64,000 nt of DNA from Phlyctochytrium arcticum (Eukaryota > Chytridiomycota > Chytridiomycetes > Chytridiales > Chytridiaceae), in contig JAHLKI010000008.1 of the NCBI GenBank assembly GCA_025602905.1, positions 434,001 to 498,000 of the forward strand, written 5' to 3'. This document shows, in pieces, positions 14,320 through 58,436 of this stretch (the stretch's first letter is position 1; every line of letters begins with the position of its first letter). The notes under the pieces were generated by a model. The model ran no database searches. It saw nothing but the letters and a program-made list of their open reading frames with translations, and was not told the DNA's origin. The translations under genes and the position numbers were made by a program.

Positions 14320-17205
14320 ATGCGCTCCTTTCCAGCTTCTCTGGTTGTCTTGCTGGGGGTGTTGCTGTCCCTGGTCCGAGCCGACTTGCCCGTACCCCAA
14401 GGGCTTCCGGACCCAGGGTCCCTCAAACACTCCCAGGTTATCTACCCCAACCGCACTGATGGATACCAGCACGCCTTTTACTGGCAAGTAGAGAACGAAG
14501 ATACTGCCGATGAAACTCTCCACGGCATTCTCGAGTTGACCGCCGCGCCAGGCAAACCTATGAGCTGGTCCTGGATCGGTATCGGATTTGGTAAATCTAT
14601 GTTGGACGCGCAATTCATTGTCTGCCATCAACTCAAGGGTGCTGCAATCGAGATGCACGAGCATACATCGGCGGGATCATACCGGGCACCTTACCATTTT
14701 CATGGCGGCCAGGTCGCCACTCCAGTCCAAGGAGCTTTCATCAACAATCGCTTAGTCTGTGAATTTACGCGGAAAACTCGTCCAAATGACAACGGTGTGC
14801 ACAGCGACATTGACGTAAACAATGCCCCCATACTTTGGGCTTTCTCTCCCGTCAATTCGCTTCGTCAGGACGGAACGTGGTTCTCCTACCACACCGAACA
14901 ACATCGTGGAGCAGCATCAGCAAACTTTGCGACTGGCGGAATTGTTGCCGTTGAGGCAAAGTCTTTTGTTAGGAAACAGATTCACGGGTTTGGCATGATG
15001 GCGGTGTGGCTGTTCATCTTTCCCTTTGCCATTTACTGGGCTCGCTATCGCCGATCCACGTACGGCTGGCTCTTTGTACATCTCACACTTCAAATTTTGG
15101 GCACTCTTGCCATTCTCGTCTTTTTTGTCGTTATCTTGACCGATTGGATCCAGATATCTCGACCTCACGCGATTTTGGGACTCTTTCTCATTTCCTTCGT
15201 CGTAATTCAGCTCGTCCTGGGAATCTTCAATCTTTTGGGTCTTTCAAATGAGGCCGTGTCCCGCGTTCGCAAGACTATCCGCCTGATCCATAATAACTTT
15301 GGTATCGCCTTGGTCGCTGCTGCCACCGCTCAAATCGCGTTGGGCTTGGAGACCTTGTACCCATGGTACGAACCTCGAGGACGGGCAGCATGGGTTGTCT
15401 ACTTTGCGCTGGTTGGACTTTGGCTAGTAGCATTCCTGAGCACTGAGCTCTTCTTCCTCCGCACCGTTCGCACATCATCCAAGATGGTTCGGAAACACAA
15501 GGCCATGATGGCGGTTGGCAACGGTAAACATAGGACAACAGATCGCAAACATACCCGGGCAGCAGCTTCTGATTCCACCGTTATTCCTCTTGGTGATCAA
15601 CGCTTGCTACCGCAAATGAAACGGTATACATGGGAAACTCTTGCGCAATCCGTCTTGAACGGCGAACTTCTCGTAGTGGCAAATGGACGTTATGTGTACT
15701 CAATTGAGCAATGGATGTCTAGTCACCCAGGAGGCCAGCTCATTTTACATGCAGTAAACGGAACAGATATCACAAATGATTACTTTAACGAAGCTGGATT
15801 TGACGCCGAAGAATTTGTGCCAAAGCCAGACGCCCCAGCTCAACGCGGGGATCGAGCCAATGCCGTAACACTTGCTCGTCCCGCCGCATCATTCATCAGC
15901 CAAAGTACGTCAGTTAGCATGTACGGAGGAGGTCATAACTCGCTTATTGAAGACATCAAGGTCGCCCCATTAATGTTGGAACGAGACTGGAAGCTGGTCG
16001 TACGATCTCGGCGAACCCACATTCACACTCGGCTTGCCATTCAAAAGTTATCCAAAATGCTGGTGGGAGAGTTGATTCCAGATTTGGATCGCATTGCCCG
16101 CAACAGCACCGAAGCGAGCGACATGACTATGAACTCTCAAGACGTGCGCCCGTTTGATCCCAATGAATATCGACGTTACGCTCTTGTAGAAAGCAAGCCT
16201 ATTTCATCTGCCTCGCAAATTTACCGGTTCCGATTCTGTCTTCTCTACCCCTACGATGTGCGTAACAACGAACCAGAAAGCTTCCTTCCTGGTCAAGCCA
16301 TCGAAATTCAAGCCCGTATCAATGGACAACTAGTCACTCGATTCTACTCGCCTCAAACTGACGGCAATCTTTCCGTTTTCGAAATTGATGTCAAATTGAC
16401 ACCGCACGGAGAAATGAGTCCGTACTTGATCAAGCAGAAACCCGGTGATCGGCAATTCAAGGTCCGAGGTCCATTCGGTACTCCTTTAGTGCACCCTGGT
16501 CGTCCCCTCCACTTGTCTTCGTCAGATTGGGTTCCACGGAACATGATTTTCGTTGCGGGCGGCACGGGTTTGACACCGTTCCTCCAATTGGTTAAATACC
16601 TGTTCTTGCCCGTCCTTGAACCACTCAAGGTTGTCGTCGATTATCACAAAACTTTGGATGATGAGTTGGGCTCGCTCGTTCGGGGTGATCGGGTTCTGGT
16701 CAAGCATCACTACTATGACGGATGGGGTATCGGTGTCAACCTCCGCACTGGCGACGAAGGCGCCTTCCCACTATCCATCACAGCTCCCCGTTGTGGGCCT
16801 CGAGTCCGTATCACACTTGTCCATGCAGTTCAAACCGCTGCTGAAGCCGCTCTGGGCAACGAATTCATCGAGGGAGCTATGCTGGCTTACCCCGACTCGA
16901 TCAGTGTCCACCGATTCATTGCAGACGGTACACTTCCCCACGAAGGTGAAACCACGGGAATCGTGTACCCCGCCCGACTCAACTCGGCCGATCTGGACAG
17001 TATTTTGCGCCAACGCTGGCTAGCGTCTTCAGATGATGTCGACGATCATATTCATGAACATCATACTGGAATTTTGGATGTCAAGGATCAGCGTTTGGTG
17101 GTCTGTGGACCTACTGGTTTCAACTCATGGGTCACGGACGTCGTCTCGGAAGCCGGAGTCGACATGCGATCGGTCAATATATTGCCGAGCGATCGAGTCG
17201 TATAG
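14320..17205 (+). CDS. Multi-module redox protein: DOMON, cytochrome b561, cytochrome b5, FNR-like reductase with SH3-like insert
   Basis: A single uninterrupted 961-residue frame. Residues 1-22 are a signal peptide. About 25-210 is a DOMON domain (WSWIGIGFG, ILWAFSPVN). About 215-385 is a b561-type core with five or six membrane helices and paired histidines (KQIHGFGMM, FVHLTLQ, ISRPHAILG, LIHNNFG). About 432-500 is a cytochrome b5 domain with the haem-loop motif SSHPGGQ near residue 469. About 615-760 is an FAD domain with RFYSPQ, and then GGTGLTPFLQLV near 747. About 774-826 looks like an SH3 fold (VDYHKTLDDELGSLVRGDRV ... YYDGWGIGVNL), inserted inside the NAD domain, which ends CGPTGFNSWV. 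The layout implies electron flow from NAD(P)H through FAD and b5 haem to the b561 haems and outward, for example to ferric iron or an extracellular acceptor. The acceptor is inference. Confidence 0.88.
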   Translation: MRSFPASLVVLLGVLLSLVRADLPVPQGLPDPGSLKHSQVIYPNRTDGYQHAFYWQVENEDTADETLHGILELTAAPGKPMSWSWIGIGFGKSMLDAQFIVCHQLKGAAIEMHEHTSAGSYRAPYHFHGGQVATPVQGAFINNRLVCEFTRKTRPNDNGVHSDIDVNNAPILWAFSPVNSLRQDGTWFSYHTEQHRGAASANFATGGIVAVEAKSFVRKQIHGFGMMAVWLFIFPFAIYWARYRRSTYGWLFVHLTLQILGTLAILVFFVVILTDWIQISRPHAILGLFLISFVVIQLVLGIFNLLGLSNEAVSRVRKTIRLIHNNFGIALVAAATAQIALGLETLYPWYEPRGRAAWVVYFALVGLWLVAFLSTELFFLRTVRTSSKMVRKHKAMMAVGNGKHRTTDRKHTRAAASDSTVIPLGDQRLLPQMKRYTWETLAQSVLNGELLVVANGRYVYSIEQWMSSHPGGQLILHAVNGTDITNDYFNEAGFDAEEFVPKPDAPAQRGDRANAVTLARPAASFISQSTSVSMYGGGHNSLIEDIKVAPLMLERDWKLVVRSRRTHIHTRLAIQKLSKMLVGELIPDLDRIARNSTEASDMTMNSQDVRPFDPNEYRRYALVESKPISSASQIYRFRFCLLYPYDVRNNEPESFLPGQAIEIQARINGQLVTRFYSPQTDGNLSVFEIDVKLTPHGEMSPYLIKQKPGDRQFKVRGPFGTPLVHPGRPLHLSSSDWVPRNMIFVAGGTGLTPFLQLVKYLFLPVLEPLKVVVDYHKTLDDELGSLVRGDRVLVKHHYYDGWGIGVNLRTGDEGAFPLSITAPRCGPRVRITLVHAVQTAAEAALGNEFIEGAMLAYPDSISVHRFIADGTLPHEGETTGIVYPARLNSADLDSILRQRWLASSDDVDDHIHEHHTGILDVKDQRLVVCGPTGFNSWVTDVVSEAGVDMRSVNILPSDRVV

Positions 17206-50261: not shown

Positions 50262-50267
50262 GGTATG
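50262..50267. repeat. Target site duplication, left copy (GGTATG)
   Basis: GGTATG directly precedes the first base of the left terminal inverted repeat, and the identical hexamer directly follows the right one at 58431-58436. Six-base duplications are typical of Polinton/Maverick-type integration by retroviral-like integrases. Confidence 0.85.
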
Positions 50268-50650
50268 GGCGGCGTAGGAGTGGGCCCCCCAAAGACTTAG
50301 CTCTGAATCCCACTTGGTCAGACCAAAAGCCAGGCTCCTGGTACGAAAATAGGTTCGTTTTCCTGACTGGAAAACCGCAACTTTAATGCATTTTGGGGGC
50401 TCCTCGGTCGGATTCGGACAGGTCCCGATCTGCCGCTGTTCGATCCCAAATCTAGGTCCGTCCGCCCGAATCGGGCCTGCTTCGCCCACGTCCGGATCTG
50501 GGTCAGTTCTGTGCCATATCTAGTCTGCTGGTCCGAATCCGAAAGGAGGCATGTAGGTATCAATTGTGCACCCATTCGCTTCCCAAAAGGGGGCCTGTCC
50601 GCGGGATTCGGATATGTACCGGAATTGGCACAGTTGAGTGCTAGATGCGG
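50268..50650 (+). repeat. Left terminal inverted repeat
   Basis: About 383 bp. The outer ~80 bp match the reverse complement of the right end almost perfectly, and similarity continues with small indels to about 50650 (AGTGCTAGATGCGG opposite CAGTGCCAGATGTCG). It contains one copy of the ~67-bp CCATATCTAGTCTNCTGGNC block that is tandemly repeated in the right repeat. Ends 110 bp before the first element gene, so it probably carries its promoter. Confidence 0.88.
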
Positions 50651-50762
50651 TCTAAATCTAGTATCAACTTTTGAGTTGATGGTCACTTGATTGGTGAGGC
50701 CCCCGACTTTTCTGACAAGAATGATTTTATTTTCTTCCCTCTGTACCAGAAATCAAAAGAAC

Positions 50763-52682
50763 ATGGCTAAATCAAAAAAGACGGCTAAATCAAAGAACAT
50801 TGTTCCAAGAGAACCAAGAGTGGCAACAACTTACGACGCCGTCTGGAGTTACGAAACTGGCCACGGCCCCCGCACAGTACGCCACGAGTTTACGACGAAA
50901 TTAAAAAAAGGTTTCGATATAGCAGCGGCCAAACGCTCGTTCAAGTACTTCGCCAAGAAACAACATGTTGATAAGCATCTTCACCTACACGACCTCGTCA
51001 TCACTTCGGTGGAGGGGATGCCAGTGGAAGGGCCGAATCGGCCAATTGCTGGAGGGGTTTTTGTGATAGAGTTCAAAATCCTGTATGAGTACGAAGGTTA
51101 CCAAGGCCGAGAGACGGTAATCCGTGAGGGCGTCACCGGTGTGATGCAAAGTATGCCGATTTTGAAGAATCGGCGGGAGGTGGATGCGCACGTGGCAGAA
51201 AAGTTACAGGAATGGCGAGATGCAGTGGAATCTGGAGAGATTAAACTACCCAATACGGCCGATAAGCTGACGGATACGCCATTGGAAGCAATTGAACTTA
51301 GTGTGACACAAGTGGATCCCGATCGCATTGATGCCGAGGAAGCGAGAAGCTATGTACGGAACATGCGCATGAAGAAATCGGCACCCGAGAAGATTTTCAC
51401 TTTTCGGACCAATGACGCCAAAGAAACAGTGTCTGTTCAGCTGGAGGACGTTTGTGTTCTCGAATATCTTGTAAACGTTGGACAGAATTGGGCGGAGAAG
51501 TCGAATGGAGTAAATCGCTCACAAGGATGGAAGAGGGGGTATCCCCGCACGGTACCGGACATGGCGGAATGGTTCAAGCTGGAGAACGCGAGTGACGGCG
51601 TGAGCATTAACATGCTGATTCCGTTTTGTGAGCGCTTTTCCTACAACCTGTATGCTTTTGACTGCTTGGGACGAAAAGTGGCCACGTACAAGGTTGCCGA
51701 CAACAACGCGGAGAACGAGCCTCCACCAAAACGAAGCAAGGCAGCACATTCCCCATCCCTTGTGTTCTGGATTAAGGACGAACACGTTTATCCAGTTACT
51801 GACCAGGGGTTCAAACTCTCTCTGATGCGCACTGACTCTCACCGCCCGCCACGTCAAAAGTATAAAGAGGCGGACATCAAGGCGATTGACCCGAGTTCTG
51901 CGGAGGTGACTGAGCTTCTGCAGGACCAATCTGCGCATGGCCTAGTGCTGATGAGCGACAGCGGAAAGGAGAGTGGCCTCGAGAAGATTTACGAGCTTAT
52001 CGTGAATGAAACAAGCGTTCACCCCATGGTGGAGCTATCGGCGTCAGGTGTTTCGAGTTTGCGGACGGATCGTTTGGAGGTTCGTCTCTGTGAGGAACCA
52101 GCCCGGGCGCAGACAACTGCGACTAGGCTTGGCGTTGACTATCATGGTCAGAGCATCACAGCTATTGGGATGGACTTCTTGTCGCAGATCCGCGGCAAGT
52201 TTGAATCGAGTGTGTACTCAGCCGAAGTTGCAGAGGTAGTCGCGTCTCGAGAGTTCTACCGGTCGCAAGTCAACATCGGCACGGAATCGCTTTGCGAATG
52301 TGGGGTCCCTCTAAACAACTGCATGCTGCATGTGTTTGAGACCGCGGGACATGGGGACAGTAATCGGCTGCGCCTTCCAAGCATGAATATTCTCAAAGGC
52401 GAGTTGGACGAGACTCTTTTGACAACAGTGGATATCAACAATAACTGCCCGACCAATGCGGCAGACATGCCTCCCGTTTTGCTGTGTTTACCGTTGGTGA
52501 TGAAGTTGAGGTGTATTCTTTGGCGTTGTTTGAGGCAAACGAAGCCAGAAAACAAAAGATCAACGATGCGACCACCACCCCTGGCGAACAGGCACCGAGT
52601 TTCTTTTACTGTGAAACGAAGACAACAAGCCGAATCAGTCCGTTCTGGCATGGAAATGGATATTACGACATTGAAGTGGTGA
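50763..52682 (+). CDS. N-terminal part of divergent family-B-like DNA polymerase (frameshifted)
   Basis: First ATG with a plausible basic start (MAKSKKTAKSKN); an ATG at 50721 is in frame upstream. The frame runs about 640 residues. Recognisable blocks: a segment EKSNGVNRSQGWKRGYPRTV, then SINMLIPFCERFSYNLYAFD followed later by LVFWIKDEHVYPVTDQ, an arrangement seen before the palm in polymerases of polinton-like and related viruses (a cysteine/aromatic block followed by an H.YP block). True homology is lost after about 52476, where reading continues one base back in the frame starting at 52484. The shift sits in a TTTT run (52477-52480). It is either decay, sequencing loss of one T, or, less likely, programmed frameshifting, since no canonical slippery heptamer is in phase. 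Function: replication of the element, inferred. Confidence 0.6.
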   Translation: MAKSKKTAKSKNIVPREPRVATTYDAVWSYETGHGPRTVRHEFTTKLKKGFDIAAAKRSFKYFAKKQHVDKHLHLHDLVITSVEGMPVEGPNRPIAGGVFVIEFKILYEYEGYQGRETVIREGVTGVMQSMPILKNRREVDAHVAEKLQEWRDAVESGEIKLPNTADKLTDTPLEAIELSVTQVDPDRIDAEEARSYVRNMRMKKSAPEKIFTFRTNDAKETVSVQLEDVCVLEYLVNVGQNWAEKSNGVNRSQGWKRGYPRTVPDMAEWFKLENASDGVSINMLIPFCERFSYNLYAFDCLGRKVATYKVADNNAENEPPPKRSKAAHSPSLVFWIKDEHVYPVTDQGFKLSLMRTDSHRPPRQKYKEADIKAIDPSSAEVTELLQDQSAHGLVLMSDSGKESGLEKIYELIVNETSVHPMVELSASGVSSLRTDRLEVRLCEEPARAQTTATRLGVDYHGQSITAIGMDFLSQIRGKFESSVYSAEVAEVVASREFYRSQVNIGTESLCECGVPLNNCMLHVFETAGHGDSNRLRLPSMNILKGELDETLLTTVDINNNCPTNAADMPPVLLCLPLVMKLRCILWRCLRQTKPENKRSTMRPPPLANRHRVSFTVKRRQQAESVRSGMEMDITTLKW

Positions 52683-55387
52683 AGACTGCTAGGCGACACA
52701 GGTTTCCCTTCAAAATTACGCACCGACTGCGGGCTCGGCAAGGATTGGAGAGCAACTTTTTCAAACCGTTCATTGCCTGCTTAGAAGCGGCTTTCAATCT
52801 TGACGATCCTGAAGAGAAGGCGATGTACAAAGCCGTGGCGACCCGGACCATAGGAGCGCTGGGCTCTTGCAAAGCGTACAGAAACTCTCGATCCTGTGCA
52901 ACGCGAGATCACGGGATGATGTCTTATCTTGTATGGGACATTCTTAGAGGATACCGAGAGAAAAAAAAATCCGTGAACTTGCGCATTCAAGAAAGTACGC
53001 TGCTAGGGTACCAAATTACTGTTGAAGAGGTTACGGAACGCGAGCACGATTCGCGACCGATGCACGCCAAGATCATTCAGCGAACGTACTGTCGGCTGTA
53101 TGATATGTTGGCCAAAGTCAAAAAGTGGTCGCCAGAAACCGAACTAGTGCAGATTCGAACGGATGCTATGACGTTTCTCTTTCCGTCAACCTCGGAGAAA
53201 GCGCGTGTCGATGAGTTGCTGGCAAAGGAACCAGGTTGGAAGTTCGAACCAACATGGAAGCCATTGAAGAACCCCAGCATGAAGATCTCGACCGCCCCTC
53301 TCGTGCGGAAAACGCCATCGGTTCCTTGGCACGAGGTAGCACTTGCTTCAAGCAGCGAGCTGACACCGAAGTATTTGCATGATATGACTGGGGGTGCGCT
53401 TATTGAGGGTAAACCTGGAACGGGAAAATCAACAGTCATCAAGACCTTTCCGCAATATCTAGCGGAATGCGGAGTTAAGCACCAAGTCGTGTCATATACC
53501 AACAACGTCGCACGCCGACTGGATGGAATGACGATTCACTCGAGCATAGCTCTCACGAACTTCAAGAAATGCGATGTAATCATTGTTGATGAGGTGTACA
53601 TGGTCTCCATTGACGTGATGGCACATCTTGTGACTTACAAAAAGCGGAATCCGGCAACGCGATTCTATCTGTTTGGCGACTATCGGCAGCTTCCCCCCGT
53701 GGAGATGGGGAGTCCCTACGATTATATCAATGGAAATGTGCTGAAGTCTCTTGTCCAGGATTCAGACGGAATTCCCACCCGCATCACGCTGGAGAAAAAC
53801 TATCGATATGGACAGGAGACGGAGGCGATGTTGGACGGTGTATGGAATGATCGCAAGGCCATTGAGACGTTCACTTTCTCAGCCGGCTACTGCTCGCGAT
53901 CACTTGTTCCTGGACATACAGATAGGAAGCGGAAGCAGAATACAATCACAGCGGGAACCAATCTCTCTCTGTCCGGTTCGACATTATCTCTGAACCCCTC
54001 GATAACGCTCACAGGAAACAATCGAACTTTGGGACTTGTTGTAAGTGGCAGTCAACCCGCCTTGAATCTGGTAAACACGTCCGGTGGGGCGGGTTCGTGG
54101 CAACTTTACTCGACGACAACAGGCGACGCCATTGGTACAGGGTACCTTTCCCTGCTGAATACTACTTCTGGTGGGGCAACACCGGTATTTCATATCAACA
54201 AGAATGACAATTCTATGTCGCTAGTCGCCGGGAATTTAATAGTTAACAGGTCTGTTGATAGCTACGTCAATATCACGGCTTCAAACACGTCTACTGCTTC
54301 GAACGCTCTTGCGGGGATTTCAGTCCAAACCGGAAATGGTGGCATTCATCTGTTTCTCAACAGTTCTGCAAGAACAGTGGACGGTGGTGTCAATTCCGCA
54401 ACGCTAAGAAACGACGTAGGTGACTTATTGTTACAGGCTAAAGGAGGAGCAGGTATCGGCGTCCGTATCTCTGCAACGAGCAACAATGTCAGTATCGCGA
54501 AGGACTTGTCCGTTGGCGGCAACATCATTGCTGCAAACCTACTCCTGAGCGAGTCTACGGATGCCGTATCCACAACAACTGGGGCTTTACGGGTTGCTGG
54601 AGGGATTCAGGTCAGCAAGAGCATCTTTTTGGGCAATCCAGCCATAAACTCTATGGTTCTCTTTGCCGGTAAGGAAAAGTACCAATCCTTCTCAGACGCA
54701 GCGAATGGGATCGCAATGACGCTCGGTGTTAATCGTACCGGCAATAGGCAGTTGTGGATTTATGATTCCGCAAACACTGCTCCGTCCAGTGCCGTATTGA
54801 GAATCACGCCTTCCGGAACTCGACCTCTCATCAGTGGGGTGTCTCTGGACGGCTTTACCGAATTGCCAATAGAAACAACTTCGTTTATTGTTAACGAAAC
54901 TCTTACGGCGAACAACGTGCAAGCCGTAACCGTCCGTGAGACCAAGCCGGATGCTTGGCACTATACAACAACTACATCGCAAAGTTTCGCTGCTTATACA
55001 ACAGCAGTTTTGAATTGGACGAGCGGAACGGCTTTCCAGTTGAATGGAGCGGTGCATTCTCAAACATACACAGTGAAGGTCGCGGGTTGGTATCGTGTAA
55101 GTTGTTCAGTGGTTATCAATACGGTTCAACAGGCCTTTGAGGCGCCAATCAACATTGTTGAGTTGATACTATTCGCCCCACCCTTAACACAGCGTCAAAA
55201 TACAATCATCCCTTTGACGACAACAACTTTACCATATACGATCCAGTCAACATTTGTGGTGTATTGCACCATCAACTCTGAATTGAAAATGATGATAAAT
55301 TGCTCGCAACCAGCCACAACAAACGTCGCGAGTAACGGGACTTACCATGGGTGTACGTATTTTCTTGGACAATTCATTGCGCCTTAG
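52484..55387 (+). CDS. Chimeric frame: polymerase palm, truncated SF1 helicase, and fibre protein
   Basis: The 967-residue frame has three parts. Residues 1-230 continue the polymerase: FFKPFIACLEAAFNLDD then K.....TRTIGALGSCKAYR (motif-B-like), PMHAKIIQRTYCRLYDML and LVQIRTDAMTF (motif-C-like with one Asp). Residues about 300-465 are a Pif1/RecD-like SF1 helicase: Walker A IEGKPGTGKST (about 53402), VVSYTNNVARRL (Ia), VIIVDEVYMVS (II), FYLFGDYRQLPPVE (III) and RITLEKNYRYG (IV). Motifs V and VI are absent. From about residue 480 the sequence becomes a Ser/Thr/Asn-rich fibre (NTITAGTNLSLSGSTLSLNP, KDLSVGGNIIAANLLLSEST, DAVSTTTGALRVAGGIQVSK) ending in a beta-rich knob (FAAYTTAVLNWTSGTAFQLN, TYTVKVAGWYRVSCSVVINT) of C1q/TNF type. 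The join suggests an in-frame deletion. A stable functional product is doubtful. Confidence 0.7.
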   Translation: MFTVGDEVEVYSLALFEANEARKQKINDATTTPGEQAPSFFYCETKTTSRISPFWHGNGYYDIEVVKTARRHRFPFKITHRLRARQGLESNFFKPFIACLEAAFNLDDPEEKAMYKAVATRTIGALGSCKAYRNSRSCATRDHGMMSYLVWDILRGYREKKKSVNLRIQESTLLGYQITVEEVTEREHDSRPMHAKIIQRTYCRLYDMLAKVKKWSPETELVQIRTDAMTFLFPSTSEKARVDELLAKEPGWKFEPTWKPLKNPSMKISTAPLVRKTPSVPWHEVALASSSELTPKYLHDMTGGALIEGKPGTGKSTVIKTFPQYLAECGVKHQVVSYTNNVARRLDGMTIHSSIALTNFKKCDVIIVDEVYMVSIDVMAHLVTYKKRNPATRFYLFGDYRQLPPVEMGSPYDYINGNVLKSLVQDSDGIPTRITLEKNYRYGQETEAMLDGVWNDRKAIETFTFSAGYCSRSLVPGHTDRKRKQNTITAGTNLSLSGSTLSLNPSITLTGNNRTLGLVVSGSQPALNLVNTSGGAGSWQLYSTTTGDAIGTGYLSLLNTTSGGATPVFHINKNDNSMSLVAGNLIVNRSVDSYVNITASNTSTASNALAGISVQTGNGGIHLFLNSSARTVDGGVNSATLRNDVGDLLLQAKGGAGIGVRISATSNNVSIAKDLSVGGNIIAANLLLSESTDAVSTTTGALRVAGGIQVSKSIFLGNPAINSMVLFAGKEKYQSFSDAANGIAMTLGVNRTGNRQLWIYDSANTAPSSAVLRITPSGTRPLISGVSLDGFTELPIETTSFIVNETLTANNVQAVTVRETKPDAWHYTTTTSQSFAAYTTAVLNWTSGTAFQLNGAVHSQTYTVKVAGWYRVSCSVVINTVQQAFEAPINIVELILFAPPLTQRQNTIIPLTTTTLPYTIQSTFVVYCTINSELKMMINCSQPATTNVASNGTYHGCTYFLGQFIAP
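53380..53850 (+). other. SF1 helicase core, motifs I-IV only
   Basis: Sub-region of the chimeric frame. Motifs I, Ia, II, III and IV are intact, but about 150 residues normally carrying motif V (T.HK.QG.T) and motif VI (VA.SR) are missing before fibre sequence begins near 53935. Without VI the arginine finger is absent, so ATPase-driven unwinding is unlikely. Confidence 0.7.
53935..55387 (+). other. Fibre/attachment-type protein segment with C1q/TNF-like knob
   Basis: Sub-region of the chimeric frame, about 480 residues. It has beta-repeat blocks of the type seen in virion fibres of giant algal and amoebal viruses and some large phages (DLSVGGNI..., ST..AVSTTTGAL.VAGGI), then a jelly-roll-like knob. 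The genuine N-terminus is missing or replaced by helicase sequence. In the family, such knobs trimerise and bind receptors or surface glycans; here that is inference. Confidence 0.6.
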
Positions 55388-55456
55388 ATCTCCTCAGAAC
55401 TCATCTACTAGCAAGCGTGAGTTTTTTTCCACTCATTGTAATATATACGTACTTCA

Positions 55457-56428
55457 ATGCCTGTCATTCGTGTCCTGAACTATCAGTTTGACCCGCCTGA
55501 TCCGCGCGACCGTCCGTTGACATTCAAGACGCCTAACCGTAGTGAGCTCTTGCCTGCCAAAACCGACCTGTCCGACAAACTCGGCATGGTATATGAGCAA
55601 GGCAATTTGGGTGCTTGCACAGCGTGCAGTCTCTGCTCACAACTGACTTTCCTCTCAAAGCAGAACGGTGCCGAACAGTATTTCAGCCGATTGTATTGTT
55701 ACTGGTTTGGTCGCCAGCTAGCGGGCTATCCGCTAAATCAGGACTCCGGGCTGTCACTGCGTCAGGCTATCAAAGCGGTGGCGAATGGGATTGTTCTAGA
55801 GACCGATTGGCCCTACATCATCCCAAAGTTCAGTCAAAAACCTAGCGTTGAGGTTGTCCGCTCGTCACAAAAATGTATTGCCTATGTGGCCGTCGACCAT
55901 GACCTCCAATCTTTGCGTCGTTGTCTTGTAAAAAAACCTATCAGTTTTGGTTTAACTTTGAGAAAATCGTTTATGTCCAAAGCCGTTGCCGCGTCTGGTT
56001 TGATCCCAATACCAGAGGTAAACGAACCGGCAGAAGGCGGTCACTGTATGCTGCTGGTGGGTTATAATTCCGACATGAAATTGTTCAAGGTCTTGAACTC
56101 GTGGGGACCTCAATGGGGTCAAAGAGGATACTGTTTCATTCCACAGGACATGATTCTTAATCCGACTATGACGGCCGATTTCTGGTGCGTTACTGAACTC
56201 CGATTTGATGCAAATCTTGTAAGGCCGTTGGCCCCTGCACGACGAGCGATTGACACGGCTGCAACCATCATCGCGTCTGTCGAGGCAACGGAATGGGTGC
56301 CTGACCGCATGTATTCAAATCAACAAAGAGTCATTTTTGAAGACTCTGTTTATGTTTGCCGCCTGGGACATCGATCGATCCCCATATGGACTCCTTCCGC
56401 TACAGCGGTGCTTTGGAAGTTGCTGTGA
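55457..56428 (+). CDS. Papain-like (C1) cysteine protease with C-terminal CBM5/12-like chitin-binding module
   Basis: 323 residues, intact frame from ATG 55457. The nucleophile region is VYEQGNLGACTACSLCSQ (Cys near 54, Gln oxyanion at 48). The catalytic His is in EGGHCMLLVGYN (about residue 195) and Asn in KVLNSWGPQWGQRGY (about 214). This is the C1 papain triad in the short form found in bacterial and viral members; no propeptide or signal peptide is obvious. Residues about 280-323 (TEWVPDRMYSNQQRVIFEDS ... VYVC, then PIWTPSATAVLWKLL) follow the aromatic spacing of carbohydrate-binding modules 5/12. A second, degenerate copy of this C-terminus lies at 57818-57900 on the other strand. Possible role: wall attachment or breaching during entry or exit, inferred. 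Confidence 0.75.
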   Translation: MPVIRVLNYQFDPPDPRDRPLTFKTPNRSELLPAKTDLSDKLGMVYEQGNLGACTACSLCSQLTFLSKQNGAEQYFSRLYCYWFGRQLAGYPLNQDSGLSLRQAIKAVANGIVLETDWPYIIPKFSQKPSVEVVRSSQKCIAYVAVDHDLQSLRRCLVKKPISFGLTLRKSFMSKAVAASGLIPIPEVNEPAEGGHCMLLVGYNSDMKLFKVLNSWGPQWGQRGYCFIPQDMILNPTMTADFWCVTELRFDANLVRPLAPARRAIDTAATIIASVEATEWVPDRMYSNQQRVIFEDSVYVCRLGHRSIPIWTPSATAVLWKLL

Positions 56429-56597
56429 AAAAACCGACAGCATCGCGCTGTCTGAAAAAGTGCCATCTCCGCTTACATAATGCCTGGTGGCTTCCCCTAG
56501 CAACAGTGTTGCGTCCCGAGGAAACCCGCTGTGGACTAAAAGGCTTTGCGATGTAAAGATAACACCCGTCGAGGTCTTCAAATCGATTCGCCGCACA

Positions 56598-57101
56598 ATG
56601 TACGTTCGAGAGACAGAACTACAGAATTATATCATCAACCACCGTGTATGCGGATATGAGCGGTCGCGCTATCCCTTCTGTGTCGCTGTAGAATGGGAAG
56701 TCGAGCCCTCTGGGAAAGGGGATCTGGTCTTCACCAACGCTGACGAGACTAAATACTTGGTCATCGAAACGAAAGTACTGCATAATGGAACTGGGTCTAC
56801 TGCCTCTAACGCCAGAACGGTGGCTCGACGAAAAAATGCGGAACAAGTGCAACGATACACCGATGCTTGGGCCAAGCTCCATCCTTTGGCGACCGTCGTT
56901 GGACTGAGCTGTGAGGGCAAACGTCAAGGGTCGACGTGGAAACTGACATGGGGTGATAATCTTGTCAAGCCGAACACGGACGTCGAACGACTGTTCGAAC
57001 GGCTCGCGGGTGCCGGATTAGGAACGAAACTGGCTGTAGGAGGTCTCCTCGGAATGTTTCTCATGGCATCAGCATCAGAAGCAGCCGATGATAGCGATTG
57101 A
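56598..57101 (+). CDS. PD-(D/E)XK-type nuclease
   Basis: About 167 residues from the first ATG in frame (MYVRETELQNYI); the frame is open further upstream without an ATG. Core motif GKGDLVFTN...KYLVIETKV places D42, E57 and K59 in the G-D-(x)n-E-x-K arrangement, followed by NAEQVQRYTDAW, the Q...Y motif common in this superfamily. The C-terminus has a Gly/Ala-rich hydrophobic stretch (LAVGGLLGMFLMASA) that may be a membrane helix, which is odd for a nuclease. It could process element ends or degrade competing DNA; neither is shown. It starts 170 bp after the protease stop, same strand. Confidence 0.6.
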   Translation: MYVRETELQNYIINHRVCGYERSRYPFCVAVEWEVEPSGKGDLVFTNADETKYLVIETKVLHNGTGSTASNARTVARRKNAEQVQRYTDAWAKLHPLATVVGLSCEGKRQGSTWKLTWGDNLVKPNTDVERLFERLAGAGLGTKLAVGGLLGMFLMASASEAADDSD

Positions 57102-57268
57102 ACGAATCTCGCGTGATGCGTAACTTTGACCAATTTGTATTTGTGGGTGAATAATAGAGACATCTTCATTACTTGAACCCCGGTATCCGGATATTGCGCT
57201 CCTTATCGAGTAAAATACGTGTAACACCAATTCCGTATATTGGTTGGGTTACATTGATTCCTAATACA
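57102..57268. other. Convergent intergenic gap inside the element
   Basis: AT-rich 167-bp gap between the nuclease stop and the stop of the membrane-protein gene on the other strand. It probably holds both 3' ends. Confidence 0.4.
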
Positions 57269-57706
57269 CTACATACGCTGTTGCATCCCTGCACCAGTCG
57301 AGTCATCTAAGAAGTATGCTATAATATCTACAGGAACACATAATATATACCCAAGGAACGGCGCACACACTCCAGCGACAAAGGTGTACGAAGCAGCAAA
57401 GGTTTTCTTGTCGGGAATGGTGGTATAGGTAGCAAGATGGATCAACATACAGATAACCCCGAGCCACATGGAGAGGACTTCCATGCCGTATTCGTCGTCT
57501 TCAAGGTCGAAGGGGGGTTCTGGATCGATCAGGTTATAGTCAATTGCGACGATTGCAAAGCCAAAGGAAATGATCCAGTAAACCAGATAAGTTGCGTCCG
57601 TGAATGCAATGATTTTGCCCAGACGGCTCACGTTATCGAGGCTGAACTTGAGAGCACCTATCGCTAACAGGACAGGTACTGCGAACGCATAGATCAAAGG
57701 GTCCAT
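57269..57706 (-). CDS. Four-helix membrane protein of the element
   Basis: 145 residues from ATG 57706 (MDPLIYAFAVPVLLAIGALK); an alternative start at 57787 adds a basic leader. Hydrophobic segments: residues 4-20, about 33-57 (FTDATYLVYWIISFGFAIVA), about 79-98 (VLSMWLGVICMLIHLATYTT) and about 106-135 (AASYTFVAGVCAPFLGYILC, VPVDIIAYF), with an acidic loop DPEPPFDLEDDEYG after the second. No family recognised. It is transcribed against the other element genes and lies next to the right repeat. A virion or host membrane role is possible, unproven. Confidence 0.55.
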   Translation of the reverse strand: MDPLIYAFAVPVLLAIGALKFSLDNVSRLGKIIAFTDATYLVYWIISFGFAIVAIDYNLIDPEPPFDLEDDEYGMEVLSMWLGVICMLIHLATYTTIPDKKTFAASYTFVAGVCAPFLGYILCVPVDIIAYFLDDSTGAGMQQRM

Positions 57707-57817
57707 GCTATGTACGGTGTTGAGGCGATTTTGCTGAAAGTGCGCCTTATTTCGTTTCGAAGTGATTCTCTTTAGCCAGCCGCACAAAAAAACAGATCAT
57801 GATTACGTAACCTGCGT

Positions 57818-57905
57818 TTCATTTTATAGCATTGCGTGGACCGACTGTAGGATCGTCGAACTTCCAAAGCACCCTTGTAGCGGGAGGCATCCATATTGGC
57901 ATACA
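57818..57905 (-). pseudogene. Degenerate second copy of the chitin-binding module end
   Basis: On the minus strand this reads CMPIWMPPATRVLWKF, closely matching the protease C-terminus IPIWTPSATAVLWKLL, and the DNA is alignable (ATGCCAATATGGATGCCTCC versus ATCCCCATATGGACTCCTTC). The upstream part that would complete the module is not present in the same frame, so this looks like the stump of another module-bearing gene cut at the inner border of the right repeat. Confidence 0.6.
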
Positions 57906-57939
57906 TGCGATCAGGGTCCGCATCCAGCCAGGAGGCGAC

Positions 57940-58430
57940 ATCTGGCACTGAAATGTGGCAATTCCGGTACATGTCCGAATCCCGCGGACGGGCCCCGATT
58001 TGGAAGCGAATGGGAGCAGTCCTGCCTCCTGTCCGATTCGGACCACGAGACTAGATATGGGACAGAACTGCCGCAGATCTGGACTTGTCCGAAACCTGTC
58101 CGATTCGGGCCAGGAGACTAGATATGGCACAGAACGGCCGCAGATCTGGACTTAGCCGAAACCTGTCCGATTCGGGCCAGGAGACTAGATATGGCACAGA
58201 ACTGCCCCAGATCCGGACGTGGGCGAAGCAGGCCCGATTCGGGCGGACGGACCTAGATTTGGGATCAAACAGCGGCAGATCGGGACCTGTCCGAGGAGCC
58301 CCGCAAATGCATTAAAGTAGCGGTTTTCCAGCCCAAAAATCGTATCGATTTTCGTACCAGGACCCTGGCTTTTGGTCTGACCAAGTGGGATTCAGAGCTA
58401 AGTCTTTGGGGGGCCCACTCCTACGCCGCC
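57940..58430 (-). repeat. Right terminal inverted repeat
   Basis: About 491 bp, reverse complement of 50268-50650. Outer end identical for the first ~70 bp except for one base. It is longer than the left copy mainly because it holds three copies of a 67-bp block instead of one. Confidence 0.88.
58031..58231 (+). repeat. 67-bp tandem repeat, three copies
   Basis: GTCCGATTCGG(G/A)CCA(G/C)GAGAC recurs at 58031, 58098 and 58165, exactly 67 bp apart. The second and third copies are nearly identical. It sits inside the right terminal repeat; the left repeat has a single, diverged copy. Could be an origin-like or protein-binding array, or simply slippage. Confidence 0.85.
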
Positions 58431-58436
58431 GGTATG
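58431..58436. repeat. Target site duplication, right copy (GGTATG)
   Basis: Exact copy of the hexamer at 50262-50267, directly after the last base of the right repeat. Confidence 0.85.

Follow-up and report, generated by a model that had tools for sequence, protein, structure and literature searches.

A probable internally deleted derivative of a polinton-like virus in the nuclear genome of the chytrid Phlyctochytrium arcticum

An integrated element with intact ends and a broken replication gene

We analysed a 64-kb stretch of DNA (the window), corresponding to bases 434001-498000 of contig C8 in the assembly of Phlyctochytrium arcticum (31.48 Mb in 91 contigs). The window contains a discrete 8163-bp insertion at positions 50268-58430. 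It is probably a non-autonomous derivative, produced by internal deletion, of a polinton-like virus (PLV) of Tlr1 type, integrated in the nuclear genome of this chytrid. The insertion has defined ends and a 6-bp target-site duplication, and its gene for pPolB-S1H, a fusion of a protein-primed PolB (pPolB) with a superfamily-1 (SF1) helicase, is broken and fused to a fibre-like sequence. No significant match to a capsid, ATPase or integrase gene was obtained, and the same genome holds fuller relatives, of which two have target-site duplications of their own. An earlier interpretation drawn from the letters of the window (the sequence-only reading) had proposed an integrated polinton-like virus in a zoosporic fungus. 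The host does belong to the Chytridiomycota, and a polinton-like origin was corroborated by homologous fusion proteins in PLV-like elements of the same genome.

Terminal repeats and target site

The boundaries of the element are given by the following features:

50262..50267, target-site duplication, left copy (GGTATG), read from the sequence
50268..50647, + strand, left terminal inverted repeat, 380 nt, from inverted pairing of the ends
57939..58430, - strand, right terminal inverted repeat, 492 nt, from inverted pairing of the ends
58028..58244, tandem 67-bp units within the right terminal repeat, from a repeat listing
58431..58436, target-site duplication, right copy (GGTATG), read from the sequence

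The outermost pairing of the arms comprises 50268-50418 and 58280-58430, with additional paired blocks further inward. Left and right arms are identical at 337 of 369 aligned bases, and the outermost 67 nt match exactly; the greater length of the right arm is mainly due to the 67-bp tandem units. This 67-nt pair is the longest exact inverted match anywhere in the window, compared to 14-20 nt for the longest match in each of 20 single-base shuffles of the same 64 kb. The 6-bp duplication is perfect, and the chance of a 6-base match at a fixed boundary is 1 in 4096. The discrete element with exact mobile ends and a perfect GGTATG duplication, as described in the sequence-only reading, was thus confirmed by repeats far above the shuffled controls and by the location of both copies of the duplication. 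In the reconstructed empty site no interrupted host gene was recognised, the longest frame across it being 210 codons from stop to stop.

The polymerase-helicase gene is broken twice

A fusion of pPolB with an SF1 helicase ("Tlr1-like helicase") is a known signature of PLVs and transpovirons, as described in the relevant parts of PMC11071308. The corresponding region of the window element is organised as follows:

50721..52682, + strand, ORF1 (open reading frame 1; 653 residues), N-terminal part of the pPolB-S1H fusion protein, from relatives on contigs C1, C11, C3 and C52 and their alignment
52823..53935, + strand, ORF2 residues 1-371, a region like polymerase motif B/C (RTDA) together with the first helicase half (SF1, motifs I, II and III), from Pfam and homology
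53936..55387, + strand, ORF2 residues 372-854, fibre-like, in frame behind the truncated helicase, from a motif with 14 of 27 residues identical to the fibre-like ORF of the C3 element

The whole of ORF2 (52823-55387) is open for 854 codons. Its helicase half was recognised by Pfam (PF13604, 5.2e-15), and a search of solved-structure profiles with the fusion protein returned helicases and other P-loop proteins. Pfam was uninformative for ORF1 (best E = 0.1), which is assigned to the polymerase by its motifs and relatives. It carries a motif A-like sequence (VDINNN) and is out of frame with ORF2. Motifs and alignment with the annotated C3 protein (P0006) and three metagenomic proteins (P0009-P0011) thus point to a pPolB-S1H homologue with motif A, a changed motif C (xTD) and the helicase. 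Searching the assembly with ORF1 resulted in seven matches, including itself and pieces, and the others were found only at C1, C11, C3 and C52, the main pieces being 35-38% identical. ORF2 likewise gave seven matches, located at the same places up to residue 371, one of the seven being a more distant helicase on C25. Identity to the relatives' proteins is about 35-46%, depending on the block. ORF1 shares 37% identity with the C3 protein, as against 20-22% with the three metagenomic relatives, and among 7996 candidates scored from 5.8 billion proteins it retrieved only itself.

In two of the relatives, ORF1 and residues 1-371 of ORF2 correspond to one continuous open frame of 1307 (C11) and 1301 (C3) residues from stop to stop, the match in C3 beginning only at ORF1 residue 135, without the first part. 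P0006 is annotated with 1279 residues, and the protein of the fuller relatives has about 1280. In the window copy, two blocks of homology lie in different frames and meet at 52469/52472, placing the break after polymerase motif A. Homology to the C11 protein stops at 53932 (residue 865 of the 1138 used), and the C11 protein continues for 273 residues that hold the second half of the helicase, including, by eye, its last motifs and an HNH-like end. No intact pPolB-S1H gene is therefore present: the window gene is broken twice, by a frame change after motif A and by a fusion that removes half of the helicase. The polymerase with SF1 helicase named in the sequence-only reading is indeed homologous to the fusion protein, but its breakage and truncation had gone unmentioned there. 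Programmed frameshifting between ORF1 and ORF2 was considered and rejected. Accidental breakage fits better, since C11 and C3 read in a single frame and the C1 gene breaks at another place.

Core PLV genes are not recognised in the element

Eleven proteins, ten selected from the C1 frames and one from C11, were compared with the whole window by tblastn. A significant match was obtained for pPolB-S1H only, the best of the other ten reaching E = 0.094. The C1 capsid protein (best E = 3.7), the C1 A32 ATPase (0.49) and two pieces of the C1 integrase (0.95) had no significant match; there is no free coding space for the capsid protein, and Pfam found no ATPase in ORF1-ORF5 either. All frames of at least 80 codons outside ORF1-ORF5 overlap these ORFs or, in the case of an 85-codon frame, sit in the left arm. 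Virophage capsid and packaging genes had no Pfam match in the five ORFs, and there is little room for them; in the same ORFs, Pfam recognised neither a zinc-finger nor a helix-turn-helix protein. PHROGs and NCBIfam added nothing of note to the helicase match above and the papain match described below. By these comparisons, the element has no recognisable capsid, ATPase or integrase and lacks a whole replicase. It has the terminal inverted repeats of a PLV and the 6-bp target duplication of a Polinton/Maverick. We did not class it as a PLV, since capsid and ATPase are lacking, nor as a Polinton, since no RVE integrase was found.

Fuller relatives in the same genome

Both ends were located for two relatives:

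C1 389919-411004, element of 21,086 bp, own duplication TCCAGC
C3 108065-124162, element, own duplication CTCAAT

The ends of the C1, C3 and C11 elements start AGTGAGTC; the window element starts GGCGGCG. A second end of the C11 element was not found in the stretches fetched around it. Pfam identified an A32 ATPase (PF04665, 1.3e-7), an rve integrase (PF00665, 2.3e-14) and an adenovirus-type fibre (PF06536, 1.5e-5) in C1. A 431-residue C1 protein is a capsid candidate with homologues in two metagenomic contigs. The structure model of one homologue, of low mean pLDDT (40.7), matched double jelly-roll capsids: 22 viral structures scored E ≤ 0.001, of which seven bear the name major capsid protein, with B646L and adomavirus LO7 among the rest. 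With ATPase, integrase, fibre and capsid-like protein in C1, the relatives are considered PLV-like. A capsid match occurs in all four (C1, C3, C11 and C52), the A32 ATPase in C1, C11 and C52, and the integrase in C1 and C3. Apart from the homologous pPolB-S1H, the window element shares terminal inverted repeats and 6-bp duplications with C1 and C3, and the fibre motif with C3. In contrast to the window element these relatives hold capsid matches, and genes of the ORF3, ORF4 and ORF5 type are unmatched in them. The sequence-only reading had suggested looking for full-length relatives with the same ends, a capsid and a packaging ATPase. Fuller relatives with capsid and ATPase matches were found, but their ends differ, and the assembly holds no other copy of the window element's ends.

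Where aligned, C1 and C3 are about 99% identical and occupy different sites, and such similarity between two PLV copies suggests recent movement. C3 lacks C1 401978-406950, a segment of about 5 kb that includes the ATPase. C3, whose ends are intact, thus arose by internal deletion of the kind proposed for the window element. It demonstrates the existence of shortened copies that keep their ends and duplications, but it does not date the shortening. Over 183 nt, the two arms are 93% alike in C3 and 94% in C1, and the right arm of C1 and the left arm of C3 are 99.5% alike. Dating an insertion by the difference between its left and right arms was rejected on these grounds: the arms of C1 and C3 differ by 6-7% within each element while corresponding arms are nearly identical, indicating that arms differ before insertion and provide no clock.

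Using the C1 proteins at E ≤ 0.001, the whole genome yielded 19 matches for the capsid, 54 for the ATPase and 30 for the integrase, with pieces counted singly and many matches weak. On these matches, the host carries many PLV genes from several lineages. Viral contigs were also searched with the C1 capsid, the C1 ATPase, the ORF1 alignment, the ORF2 helicase part, the fibre part and the metagenomic protein P0011. Nothing was found, which is a weak negative as only 2 or 6 short peptide patterns were used for each.

Virion-type and other genes of the element

Behind the helicase-fibre fusion, the element contains the following features:

55457..56428, + strand, ORF3 (323 residues), papain-like (C1) protease with a C-terminal CBM5/12 chitin-binding module, from Pfam, structure-profile and viral matches
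56598..57101, + strand, ORF4 (167 residues), PD-(D/E)XK-like nuclease (GD...ExK), from a homologue alignment
57269..57706, - strand, ORF5 (145 residues), membrane protein with four hydrophobic stretches, from hydrophobicity
57858..57902, - strand, fragment near the right arm, agreeing at 10 of 15 residues with the last part of the chitin-binding module of ORF3

Assignment of the fibre part of ORF2 is based on the 27-residue motif shared with C3. In the whole genome this part matched only itself and, weakly, C7 (E = 1.4e-4), at about 5 kb from an ATPase match. For ORF3, Pfam detected papain (PF00112, 3.2e-10) and CBM5/12 (PF02839, 1.1e-5), the latter at 25.8 bits just below the cut-off of 26.2. 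Its best solved relative is 3ois (E = 1.3e-32), and by eye against this structure the papain Cys, His and Asn are kept. Two viral contigs encode relatives of ORF3 (37%), and both contigs are of bacteriophage type as judged by eye from their ORFs; in one of them (L050) the gene adjoins fibre-like genes. Seven phage records match as well. This protease and its chitin-binding module probably assisted in entering through the chitin wall or in leaving it. ORF4 gave no Pfam match. It keeps GDLVF...ExK, and in an alignment of four homologues (a fifth was excluded because it contains a stop codon) GD is present in all four and ExK in two, the other two having lost it partly or wholly. ORF4 has eight matches in the assembly, including itself. 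The chitin-binding fragment near the right arm is a probable remnant of a second chitin-binding gene. ORF3-ORF5 and the fibre part have open frames and may still be expressed.

The block of virus-type genes listed in the sequence-only reading was accordingly recovered: the helicase half, papain and CBM5/12 by Pfam, the polymerase, fibre and nuclease by motifs or relatives, and the membrane protein by its four hydrophobic stretches.

Origin of the element

In the scenario that we favour, the terminal repeats would have served as replication origins and as integrase sites, and an integrase supplied by a fuller virus would have inserted the element via staggered cuts at a distance of 6 bp. Internal deletion, either before or after insertion, would have removed the genes for capsid, ATPase and integrase along with half of the helicase. 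The present element would then be an immobile provirus remnant, unless a virus recognising its ends provides the enzymes in trans.

Several observations weigh against this scenario. That the lost genes were once present in the window element is deduced from the relatives. The left arm, searched as DNA against the whole assembly, had three matches, all at the element's own two ends, so no parent or helper is seen. ORF3 and ORF5 found no relative in the assembly and hence are not leftovers of a C1-type parent, which suggests that the parent PLV belonged to another lineage. The C1 fibre pieces had no tblastn match in the window. ORF2 is open across the helicase-fibre fusion, and decay need not leave such a frame. 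The relatives are damaged themselves, with pPolB broken in C1 and C52 and a stop in the capsid frame of C3, so breakage is a poor guide to when the deletion occurred. The OTU-like region of ORF1 (about residues 223-367, with C245 and H355) owes its structural matches to a low-confidence model, whose non-OTU fold matches lie mostly over residues 38-194 and for which Foldseek found no solved structure at E ≤ 0.001 (best OTUD5, 0.042). A profile search of the sequences of solved structures with the capsid family returned nothing relevant. The capsid and OTU assignments, both from models of low mean pLDDT (40.7 and 40.3), serve as supporting evidence only.

Alternatively, the element could be a satellite resembling a transpoviron: a capsid-less 8-kb linear replicon with terminal repeats, fibre, chitin-binding protease, nuclease and membrane protein, and with a functional helicase-fibre fusion, that was copied, packaged in the particles of another virus and integrated by fuller PLVs of the same genome. 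The size of 8163 bp (about 7-8 kb in transpovirons), the terminal and tandem repeats, a Tlr1-type helicase gene, a membrane protein and the lack of a capsid all resemble transpovirons as far as they are described in PMC11788076, PMC11071308 and PMC3671162, and ORF2 is open across the fusion. However, the helicase gene is broken, with the polymerase motifs split over two frames and the second helicase half missing, and ORF1 is closer to the C3 protein than to its metagenomic relatives. Fibre and protease are virion-type genes, the zinc-finger and helix-turn-helix proteins are unrecognised, the tandem repeats lie in one end and not internally, and the element is integrated in a fungus with a 6-bp duplication; the likeness, moreover, is judged by descriptions of transpovirons. 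We consider a satellite unlikely, although it would, if true, represent a parasite of PLVs inside a fungus. It is very unlikely that a PLV remnant was adopted by the host, with ORF3-ORF5 and the fibre part kept for a role such as antiviral defence or chitin remodelling. The three uninterrupted ORFs and the retained catalytic residues of ORF3 would agree with adoption, but no relative of ORF3 or ORF5 was found in the genome.

The sequence-only reading had suggested that the gene set may be that of a lineage of its own, which would imply an intact virus with capsid and packaging genes diverged beyond recognition. The exact ends and the distance to the other PLVs of the genome (54-65% divergence) are in line with this idea. 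It was nevertheless abandoned as most improbable: the frames of at least 80 codons and the small ORF5 leave no room for a double jelly-roll capsid and an ATPase, and the replication gene is broken. The fusion is a known signature, and the odd gene set is better explained by deletion because the core genes are unmatched, the helicase is halved and fused to the fibre, and the frame is broken. What did hold of the supposed undescribed lineage is a second divergent branch beside the fuller PLVs of the same genome, but a PLV in a chytrid had been known before, according to the part of PMC7805220 dealing with it. That ordinary host genes lie between chance or unrelated repeats is, as judged from this assembly, scarcely credible. 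The GC content at third codon positions in the element (0.49-0.56) is like that of one neighbouring host gene (0.55), but the terminal repeats are far above chance and accompanied by a target duplication, and the ORF1/ORF2 homologues reside in elements that have ends of their own and, in two cases, a duplication as well.

Comparison with known systems and significance

Like the Tlr1 element and other fusion-bearing PLVs, to the extent that PMC11071308 describes them, the window gene has palm motifs followed by the helicase, with a putative OTU-like domain in front, and the first Asp of motif C is changed (RTDA). Unlike theirs, it lies in two frames with a halved helicase, and the element has no capsid genes; Tlr1 was compared by description. 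The PLV reported from the chytrid Spizellomyces punctatus belongs to a group with a chitinase in 52% (PMC7805220, in the section on this group). It shares with the window element integration in a chytrid and a chitin-directed gene, here papain-CBM5/12. Membership of that group is set by the capsid protein and by shared genes, and the likeness is again by description.

We concluded that the element is PLV-derived; its layout is much like that of a transpoviron, but its replicase is broken and the elements most closely related to it are PLV-like. Early 'Polintons' in which no capsid gene is detectable carry pPolB and integrase. The window element differs from them in having no integrase match. 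It resembles them, Rhizophagus being an example given in the text of PMC7805220, as a Polinton-type element without a recognised capsid gene.

Fungal DNA viruses are little known; in the portions of the literature consulted, PLVs of chytrids rest on one reported case, and among papers on P. arcticum none, judged by title, concerns viruses of this fungus. New are the second PLV lineage, its papain protease of phage type that carries a chitin-binding module, and the large number of PLV genes in one host. Together with its relatives, the element indicates that one chytrid genome houses several PLV lineages. It would provide a worked example of a PLV shrinking to a capsid-less element between intact ends, a process that bears on the origin of transposon-like polintons and of transpovirons. 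Otherwise it is an ordinary, well-bounded provirus remnant, of moderate interest for the PLV load of its host and as an example of reduction.

Further observations on PLV genes of the host

Two F-box-like proteins were seen by eye in the C1 element, the first (L028:4341-5015) with a weak match to PF12937 (E = 0.041), the second (L028:8922-9647) without a Pfam match. At C11:234093-239025, where the C11 element ends and in the DNA past it, lie ORFs that by eye resemble a transposase gene. The four ATPase copies at C17, C18, C26 and C41 have identical scores (137.4 bits), which points to recent PLV copying. At C40:8453-30834, capsid (8453/29776) and ATPase (10902/27777) matches occur in mirror order, as if two PLV copies lay head to head, and a fragment of an ORF4-type nuclease is located between them (14926-15120).

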